Made by a program: the position numbers and the translations under genes. A stretch of DNA of 64,000 nucleotides from Syntrophorhabdus sp. PtaB.Bin027 (GTDB lineage Bacteria; Desulfobacterota; Syntrophorhabdia; Syntrophorhabdales; Syntrophorhabdaceae). Shown in pieces: positions 45,024 through 47,371 of this stretch. The stretch is taken from contig MVQO01000228.1 in the NCBI GenBank assembly GCA_002067585.1, positions 1-64,000 on the forward strand. Reading direction: 5' to 3'. The first letter of the stretch is position 1. Each line of letters starts with the position of its first letter. The notes beneath the pieces are model-generated. The model was not told where the DNA came from. It did no database searches and saw only the letters and a list, made by a program, of their open reading frames with translations.

Positions 45024-45050
45024 TAAAACAAATCGTTGAATATCCGATAA
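45024..45050 (+). promoter_or_regulatory. sigma-28 (FliA)-type promoter of the first HDOD gene
   Basis: TAAAACAA (45024-45031), 11-bp spacer, TCCGATAA (45043-45050). The canonical motif is TAAAGTTT-N11-GCCGATAA, so the -10 matches 7/8 and the -35 core TAAA is exact. Transcription would start about 45057, 16-37 nt before the candidate starts. Confidence 0.7.
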
Positions 45051-45093
45051 TGATATTAATGTCTGAAATCTTGTGAATAGATGCAGGTGTTTT

Positions 45094-45978
45094 GTGATAA
45101 TTAAGGATTTTAAGTCAAAAGTGTTAAAAATGATCAGTTATTTGCCACCGGTACCGACCGTTATGGTGGAGCTTGTTCAGGCGCTTAATAATGAGGATAT
45201 TGAATTGAATGTCCTTGGAAAAATTATCGCAAAAGACCCTTCGATGAGTGTCAATGTTTTAAAAGTAGCCAACTCAGCGTTTTATAAATTGCCTGTGAAG
45301 GTTACCACTATAGATCATGCAGTGCGTATGTTAGGTACGCGAGAAATTGCCTCGCTTTGTATAGCGTGTACTGCAGGAAAAACTTTAAAGGCACCGGCTA
45401 ATAAAGCTACCATTGATCTCAGTATGTTTTGGCAGCATTCTGTGGCTACCGGTGTGATTTCCAAAGTGCTTTGCAACGAACTTGGTATTCTGACACAAAA
45501 TAACATATATCTTGCAGGTCTTATCCATGATGTTGGTAAGATCATTCTGGATAGGTTTATGCATGATATCTACAAAGAGATTGTGAAGATTACTTACAAT
45601 GAAAATATATCAATGATTGAGGCAGAACAGCGGGTAATAGGCGAATCACATGCAAAGGTTGGTGGGTGGCTGATGAAGGCATGGAATCTGCCTTCAATTT
45701 TCGTGGATATAGCCAACTACCACCACTCAGTAATGGAAACCAGGGAGGAAAGTAGGCTGGAAGTGGCTATAGTCTCTCTTTCGAACCAACTTGCAAGACT
45801 CAAAAGCTTCGGGTTTGGTGGCGATATGAGTGGCGTTGTACTTGCAGATATCGATGCGTGGAAGATTATTGATGAAGCCTATCCACAAATAAAGAATCTA
45901 GATGTAGTCAAGTTCATTTGGGATCTCGACGAGGCATATAATGAAATTGTGGCAATGGAGAGGATCATCAATAATTGA
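45094..45978 (+). CDS. HDOD-domain protein, first of a tandem pair
   Basis: 294 residues from GTG 45094, chosen because it aligns with the start of the paralogue downstream; an upstream in-frame GTG (45073) would add seven residues. It is almost entirely an HDOD domain: ISYLPPVPTVMVELVQAL, KIIAKDPSMSVNVLKVANSA, HAVRMLGTREIASLCIA, GLIHDVGKIILDRF (HD residues kept) and the YHH motif near residue 216. HDOD proteins act in signalling or motility control rather than as proven enzymes. The upstream sigma-28-type promoter links it to the motility regulon by inference. Confidence 0.93.
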   Translation: MIIKDFKSKVLKMISYLPPVPTVMVELVQALNNEDIELNVLGKIIAKDPSMSVNVLKVANSAFYKLPVKVTTIDHAVRMLGTREIASLCIACTAGKTLKAPANKATIDLSMFWQHSVATGVISKVLCNELGILTQNNIYLAGLIHDVGKIILDRFMHDIYKEIVKITYNENISMIEAEQRVIGESHAKVGGWLMKAWNLPSIFVDIANYHHSVMETREESRLEVAIVSLSNQLARLKSFGFGGDMSGVVLADIDAWKIIDEAYPQIKNLDVVKFIWDLDEAYNEIVAMERIINN

Positions 45979-46050
45979 ATAGTTTGAGCTGTGATGTAAC
46001 TCATTTCAATCAATGTCAAAACACCGGTAAATAATCTCAAAAATCATTTT

Positions 46051-46077
46051 TAAAGTAGAAAAGAGATTTTCCGATAA
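46051..46077 (+). promoter_or_regulatory. sigma-28 (FliA)-type promoter of the second HDOD gene
   Basis: TAAAGTAG (46051-46058), 11-bp spacer, TCCGATAA (46070-46077), the same -10 octamer and spacing as the promoter of the neighbouring paralogue. Predicted transcription start about 46084, 40 nt before the ATG. Confidence 0.75.
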
Positions 46078-46123: not shown

Positions 46124-47002
46124 ATGATGGAAGATTTCGAGAGCAAGATTAAGCAGACTATAGAATACCTGCCTCCAATCCCGTCGGTCATGGCAGAACT
46201 CATACAGGCTTTGAATGACGACATCGACCTCAATGATCTTGGGAAAATTATCTCCAAAGACCCATCAATGAGCATGAACGTCTTAAAGGTTGCGAACTCA
46301 GCCTTTTATGGTCTTAGAAATAAGGTTGCAACGATAGAACACGCTGTGAGAATGCTTGGGACAAGAGAGATTACCTCCCTGTGTATTGCCTGCAGCGCAT
46401 GCAGTATATTGAGACCGTCATCAAGACAACCTACGATTGATTTGATAATGTTCTGGAGGCATTCTGTAGCAACGGGGGTGTTTTCAAAACTTCTTTCCAG
46501 CGAGCTAAATATAGGACTGCTGAATAATATCTATCTTGCGGGTCTCATCCATGATGTAGGCAAGATTGTGCTTGATAGGTTTGCTCATGATATGTATACG
46601 GATGTCTTGCGTCTGGCCCGTGGCCAGAATATTTCGGTCCTGGAGGCGGAAAAACGTGTGATCGGCGCTTCTCACGACATGGTGGGAGCCTGGCTTATGG
46701 AGAAATGGCAACTCCCCATTATTTTTAGCCAGGTCGCCATGTACCATCACCAGACATATAAGGCTCCTGACGAATGCCTGATTGCAGTGTCAATTGTCTC
46801 ATTCGCTAATCATATTTCAAAACTTAAAAGCTTTTGTTTTGGAGGAGAAATAGATGGGACAACACTTAGAGAAACAGACGCTTTCAAAATACTTGAACGG
46901 ATAAATCCTGGAGTTCGTGGACTCGATTTTCTTGATTTCATAGAGAGTCTGAATGGTGCTCGTGAGGAAATCGTTAATATAGAGAGAGTTATTAATGTTT
47001 GA
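46124..47002 (+). CDS. HDOD-domain protein, second of a tandem pair
   Basis: 292 residues, closely similar along its whole length to the HDOD protein encoded just upstream: IEYLPPIPSVMAELIQALN, KIISKDPSMSMNVLKVANSA, HAVRMLGTREITSLCIACSA, GLIHDVGKIVLDRFAHDMY and MYHHQTYKAP. The HD pair is retained. The two genes are separated by about 145 bp that contain a separate sigma-28-like promoter, so this is a tandem duplication with independent transcription rather than one operon. Role presumed in motility, chemotaxis or cell-cycle signalling. Confidence 0.94.
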   Translation: MMEDFESKIKQTIEYLPPIPSVMAELIQALNDDIDLNDLGKIISKDPSMSMNVLKVANSAFYGLRNKVATIEHAVRMLGTREITSLCIACSACSILRPSSRQPTIDLIMFWRHSVATGVFSKLLSSELNIGLLNNIYLAGLIHDVGKIVLDRFAHDMYTDVLRLARGQNISVLEAEKRVIGASHDMVGAWLMEKWQLPIIFSQVAMYHHQTYKAPDECLIAVSIVSFANHISKLKSFCFGGEIDGTTLRETDAFKILERINPGVRGLDFLDFIESLNGAREEIVNIERVINV

Positions 47003-47038: not shown

Positions 47039-47371
47039 ATGCAAAAACAGTCAAAAGAGTCCATTACCCCTATTGAAAGACATGAGACGATTCGTCAGTA
47101 CATTGTAGCCCTTTTACAGGACTATACTATTTCAGCGAAAGAGCTTTCAAATTTTTTAAAAATTCCTGAAAAAGATGTTCATGATCATCTTGTGCACATA
47201 AAAAAGACCATGAATAAGGGCAGTTATCACCTTGTTGTTTACCCTGCTGAGTGTTCTAAATGCAGTTTTGTTTTCAGGAAAAGAGATAAACTGGCAAAGC
47301 CTGGCAAGTGCCCGATCTGCCACTGCAACCAAATCATTCCTCCCTTATTTTCTATTATCAAGTATACATGA
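47039..47371 (+). CDS. small transcription regulator with helix-turn-helix and zinc ribbon
   Basis: 110 residues. An N-terminal winged-helix-like segment (ERHETIRQYIVALLQDYTIS, then AKELSNFLKIPEKDVHDHLV, about residues 12-50) is followed by a zinc ribbon with CSKC (about 73-76) and CPICHCNQI (about 92). This two-part layout is common in archaeal and deltaproteobacterial 'predicted transcriptional regulators' of unknown regulon. It sits between the HDOD pair and lpxK with its own promoter. Confidence 0.82.
   Translation: MQKQSKESITPIERHETIRQYIVALLQDYTISAKELSNFLKIPEKDVHDHLVHIKKTMNKGSYHLVVYPAECSKCSFVFRKRDKLAKPGKCPICHCNQIIPPLFSIIKYT

Follow-up and report, generated by a model that had tools for sequence, protein, structure and literature searches.

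Predicted sigma-28 (FliA) promoters upstream of a tandem pair of HDOD genes in Syntrophorhabdus sp. PtaB.Bin027

HDOD is a common bacterial signalling domain for which we know of no established mechanism. In the 64-kb window analysed here (the whole stretch of DNA, 64,000 nucleotides), two adjacent HDOD genes are each preceded by a sequence resembling a promoter of the flagellar sigma factor FliA. The initial annotation took this as a sign of control by FliA and of a link to motility or the motile cell state, and we confirm its remark that the window contains no flagellar genes. We asked whether these elements are sigma-28 promoters and what such promoters would say about the HDOD proteins.

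Two predicted promoters and the genes behind them

The region contains the following features:

45024..45050, + strand: predicted sigma-28 (FliA) promoter of HDOD gene 1, with -35 region TAAAACAA (45024-45031), N11 and -10 box TCCGATAA (45043-45050); based on sequence, rarity, matrix score and conservation
45094..45978, + strand: HDOD gene 1, GTG start, about 294 aa; Pfam HDOD PF08668 (4.7e-58) and alignment
46051..46077, + strand: predicted sigma-28 (FliA) promoter of HDOD gene 2, with -35 region TAAAGTAG (46051-46058), N11 and -10 box TCCGATAA (46070-46077); based on sequence, matrix score and conservation
46124..47002, + strand: HDOD gene 2, 292 aa; Pfam HDOD (2.7e-53)
47039..47371, + strand: gene of a PF0610-like N-terminal / zinc-ribbon protein; Pfam PF21476 (9.8e-14)

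Read directly, the letters of site 1 are TAAA-ACAAATCGTTGAATA-TCCGATAA (45024 to 45050) and those of site 2 are TAAA-GTAGAAAAGAGATTT-TCCGATAA (46051 to 46077). At both sites 15 nt separate TAAA from the octamer, that is, TAAANNNN-N11-octamer, and the sigma-28 pattern of a TAAAGTTT-like -35 and a GCCGATAA-like -10 separated by N11 is found with exact spacing. The octamer is identical at the two sites and matches GCCGATAA in seven of eight positions, as had been described, and the second half of the -35 region is weak at both (ACAA, GTAG). The elements had been called near-identical, which is true of the core boxes; the spacers and flanks do not align. Their distances to the genes had been described as matching, and they are indeed similar (43 nt from the -10 box to the start codon for gene 1 and 46 nt for gene 2), once the start of gene 1 is moved from 45073 to 45094. 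The longest open frame of gene 1 begins at GTG 45073, and the GTG or ATG starts of the orthologues correspond to GTG 45094.

We estimated how unusual these sites are. The exact form TAAA-N15-TCCGATAA occurs in the window at these two sites only. When two mismatches were allowed, we found 25 matches compared to 21.6 expected, which is chance level, and thus only the exact form is informative. Pattern searches of the 3.07-Mb genome detected eight exact sites, compared to three for the reversed control; three of them are within genes, and the five intergenic ones are each at most about 70 nt from where a long open frame starts. A scoring matrix trained on flagellar promoters only ranked the site of HDOD gene 2 first in the window (17.2 bits, P 0.001) and that of HDOD gene 1 fourth among distinct window sites (13.0 bits, P 0.006, with the -35 shifted by one base), where P values were obtained by shuffling the 160-nt region upstream of each gene. 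We used a matrix with variable spacing, as a rigid one under-scored sites with 12 nt between the boxes. A looser motif, TWAA-N16-SCGATRA, gave 29 matches in this genome compared to 18 for the control and was discarded as evidence.

The HDOD domain is full-length in both proteins (196 and 181 bits, curated cut-off 22.9). Neither has a match to PF13487 (HD_5) at E 0.001, and the GYP motif after the HH pair is absent from the HDOD alignment; we thus conclude that they are not HD-GYP enzymes. Six residues of the HD fold that are putative metal ligands (H115, H145, D146, H186, H210 and H211) are invariant in ten orthologues. In the pattern H...HD...H...HH...D, only the two window proteins have N in place of the last D (SLADQLAR), which hints that the tandem pair may bind metal differently. 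Sequence relatives with solved structures are 3hc1 and, more distantly, 1vqr (Cj0248). The zinc-ribbon gene begins 36 nt after HDOD gene 2 and is possibly co-transcribed with it. Searching the flanks of HDOD orthologues in relatives with tblastn, we found no match to the zinc-ribbon protein, and the neighbouring genes of the pair are not common to the relatives.

FliA and the motif in this genome and its relatives

Absence of fliA from the organism would have spoken against control by FliA. However, FliA is encoded at C201:86005-86670 (TIGR02479, 247 bits, cut-off 189.6), as the only copy above the cut-off in this genome. The gene order around it, read from translations, is flhF-flhG-fliA-HDOD-cheB, and flgM, rod protein genes and flagellins are encoded in the genome as well.

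The five intergenic exact sites precede the two window HDOD genes, two HD-GYP genes and one MshEN-domain gene. The GAF-PAS-HD-GYP gene (C220) has TAAAGTTA-N11-GCCGATAA 67 nt upstream, and the HAMP-HD-GYP gene (C216) has ACCGATAA 55 nt upstream. The MshEN-domain gene is preceded by TAAAGCAT-N11-GCCGATAA, with a full-consensus -10 (C158:23067-23093). Leaving out the window pair, two of the three remaining sites each lie before one of the five HD-GYP genes of the genome (P about 7e-6, assuming about 2,900 genes as estimated from genome size). Furthermore, a cNMP-HDOD gene (C145) has TTAAG-N14-GGCGATAA 67 nt upstream. Further HDOD and HD-GYP genes (C78, C178, C72, C123 and C147) were inspected in the same genome and have no good element upstream, and the promoter region of the HDOD paralogue on C205 is near chance (P 0.08).

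A search for the same motif at late flagellar genes had been proposed as a check. The motif is present in this genome in degenerate versions: TTAAG-N14-GGCGATAA upstream of flgM (28 nt before the start), TAAG-N15-CACGATAA upstream of a methyl-accepting chemotaxis protein (MCP) gene and TAAAGTTT-N11-TGCGAAAA upstream of a flagellin gene. This degeneracy counts against our reading, and the strict pattern of the relatives, TTAAG-N15-SCGATRAT, has no match in this genome. In six relatives the motif is clear at flagellin genes, for instance CTTAAG-N14-GCCGATAATA. Across the 33 fliA-containing genomes of the order (this one included), the strict pattern has 77 matches compared to 8 for the control; across the 11 genomes lacking fliA, it has 6 compared to 2. 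In relatives, we read the genes behind the motif at a large, manually selected share of the matches; they encode flagellin, FlgM, CheW, CheV, MCP, FapA and HD-GYP or HDOD proteins, the last two kinds in at least 12 cases.

We next consider the HDOD genes across 59 relatives, 18 of which have an orthologue (E 1e-60 or better). When the upstream regions were compared, an element of the type CTTAAG-N13/14-NCCGATRATA was found before the orthologue in 17 of the 18, covering seven genera of two families, although members of the same genus do not count as independent cases. The distance of the element to the start codon is about 46-85 nt, and P is between 0.001 and 0.047 per 160-nt region; the case of G015 is borderline (P 0.047). 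The remaining relative, G014, has a weaker TTAAG...ACCGATAT at the same place, which is not the best-scoring site by the matrix. Furthermore, the element before the HDOD orthologues agrees with that of the flagellin promoters in the respective lineages.

The orthologue was detected in 18 of 40 relatives with fliA and in 0 of 19 without (Fisher P 2e-4); within the family, the numbers are 16 of 26 and 0 of 10 (P 8e-4). These P values ignore shared ancestry, and many of the genomes are incomplete. Losses inside genera are consistent with the link between fliA and the orthologue: G004 lacks both, whereas the other sampled members of its genus have both. As 22 relatives with fliA have no orthologue, the HDOD protein is not an obligate flagellar partner.

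It had also been suggested that the duplication copied, or preserved, the promoter. The two window proteins are 58% identical, adjacent and in one clade with proteins of G018, G039 and G041, whereas a second clade contains the paralogue on C205 and proteins of fifteen relatives. The tree does not resolve the pair as mutual sisters, and no tandem HDOD pair was found in the flanks examined in relatives. As the flanks of the two sites contain no alignable remnant, preservation is better supported than copying, which is unproven given the unsettled sister relation. The promoter is probably old and preserved; a recent event in which it was copied with the gene is not supported.

Alternative readings and the motile state

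We consider it very probable that both elements are sigma-28 promoters, from which FliA would transcribe the HDOD genes together with late flagellar genes; the proteins would most likely have a motility role linked to c-di-GMP. The presence of fliA, the motifs at flagellar genes, the conservation in 17 of 18 relatives and the co-occurrence all support the proposed control by FliA and a link to the motile state.

Among the alternatives, the one that survives best accepts promoters for FliA, or for a second FliA-like factor, and assigns the HDOD proteins a duty outside swimming, such as type IV pili, surface attachment or nutrient state. The lack of flagellar genes in the window fits this explanation, as does the motif before the MshEN protein, whose domain family is found in pilus ATPases. 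Some motif-bearing genes of relatives are also non-flagellar, e.g. those of nucleotidyl cyclase, FIST and hemerythrin proteins, and a few members of the order (G037 and G041) carry two FliA-class proteins above the cut-off. However, there is a single such protein in this genome, flagellin, chemotaxis and HD-type signalling genes abound in the motif set of the relatives, and HDOD proteins elsewhere affect motility (PMC11813219, PMC11004494). We thus regard a duty outside swimming as rather unlikely.

A second alternative is that the sites are ordinary sigma-70 promoters (TTAAAA-17-GATAAT and TTTAAA-18-GATAAT) and that the likeness to sigma-28 is a by-product. Sigma-70 matches at 9 of 12 positions do overlap both sites, but such matches number 14 in the region compared to 8.4 expected and are thus uninformative. 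The orthologues mostly keep CTTAAG and CCGAT, whereas the bases after CGAT vary, so that GATAAT becomes GATGAT, GATCAT or GATATT; a kept CCGAT core with varying last bases is more consistent with sigma-28 than with a sigma-70 -10 box. As the flagellin promoters have the same element and the orthologue was detected only in genomes with fliA, we consider the sigma-70 explanation quite improbable. Chance resemblance in functionless AT-rich intergenic DNA, which the chance-level count of two-mismatch matches might suggest, is extremely improbable, as spacing and octamer are exact at both genes and 17 of 18 relatives have the element at the same distance. We therefore rejected both the sigma-70 and the chance explanation, based on conservation, exact spacing, the kept CCGAT core, the likeness to flagellin promoters and the co-occurrence with fliA.

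Returning to promoters recognized by FliA for genes of the motile state, the following model can be proposed. FlgM is exported once the hook-basal body is complete, and this frees FliA. Free FliA would then transcribe the late flagellar genes and, from similar promoters, each of the window HDOD genes, as well as further genes of the HDOD and HD-GYP kinds in this genome. The HDOD proteins would be made along with the filament and be present in the motile state, where they would most likely be output or adaptor proteins of c-di-GMP-linked motility control: in the simplest model, HD-GYP phosphodiesterases would lower c-di-GMP and hold it low, and HDOD outputs would read the low level in swimming cells. 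The promoter part of this model is well supported, and from it we infer that FliA would transcribe the HDOD genes. The role of the proteins is one that we infer, with involvement of HDOD proteins in c-di-GMP signalling documented in other systems only.

In Escherichia coli, YhjH is an EAL protein and YcgR a PilZ protein. FliA drives there the genes of the phosphodiesterase YhjH (PdeH) (PMC4866697) and of the effector YcgR (PMC5300878) along with late flagellar genes, which resembles the arrangement proposed here; the difference is that the FliA-type promoters of this genome are on HD-GYP, HDOD and MshEN genes. FliA of Pseudomonas likewise influences c-di-GMP via the gene of a phosphodiesterase, BifA/PA4367 (PMC5300878, PMC4866697); unlike here, this is an EAL-type enzyme and no HDOD gene is involved, and the PAO1 bifA promoter has no sigma-28 consensus according to the P. 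putida paper. By analogy, the FliA regulon of the family might form a complete HD-type c-di-GMP branch of HD-GYPs, several HDODs, EAL-HDOD and MshEN, the latter a c-di-GMP receptor (PMC5013675), which would do the job of YhjH/YcgR with HDODs as motility effectors. We put this forward tentatively, as a possibility that we do not favour.

Several HDOD proteins have been linked to motility: loss or overexpression of Cj0248 (C. jejuni), GsmR (Xanthomonas), PSPTO_4229 (P. syringae) and SadB (Pseudomonas) alters swimming or flagellar gene expression (PMC11813219, PMC11004494, PMC6543031). Cj0248 is a sequence relative of the window proteins, although the similarity of all four to them is low. SadB, unlike the window proteins, has an extra YbaK-like domain and is reported to bind c-di-GMP (PMC6543031). 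The accounts of these proteins, in the parts consulted, describe no conserved sigma-28 promoter, in contrast to the genes studied here. The link between HDOD proteins and motility, which comes from scattered mutants, thus gains a regulatory basis in a predicted sigma-28 promoter that is conserved over genera, co-occurs with fliA and is shared with HD-GYP genes. Such a promoter points to the time of HDOD production and to likely partners, and makes HDOD function testable in culturable relatives.

Further sigma-28-type elements

In at least four relatives (G017, G021, G034 and G042), the HDOD gene that comes next to fliA has a sigma-28-type promoter of its own, located between the two genes (L121:4520, L122:4920, L085 and L159); in the genome studied here, the corresponding HDOD frame instead overlaps fliA at its end and has no such element. 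An EAL-HDOD gene of G003 (L124:11385-12602) has TAAAGTTC-N11-CCCGATAA 94 nt upstream, and its homologue in this genome (L030:1258-2484, on C201) retains ACCGATAA with a poor -35.

Two other arrangements recur. A sigma-28-type element lies about 210 nt before a response-regulator gene on the minus strand of L022 (C123 of this genome) and recurs in several relatives (L075, L088 and L093), with a small open frame between promoter and response regulator (about 80 aa in L093). Lastly, a gene with a nucleotidyl-cyclase domain (Guanylate_cyc) starts 12-13 nt after the strict motif in G030 and G015 (L079 and L136).
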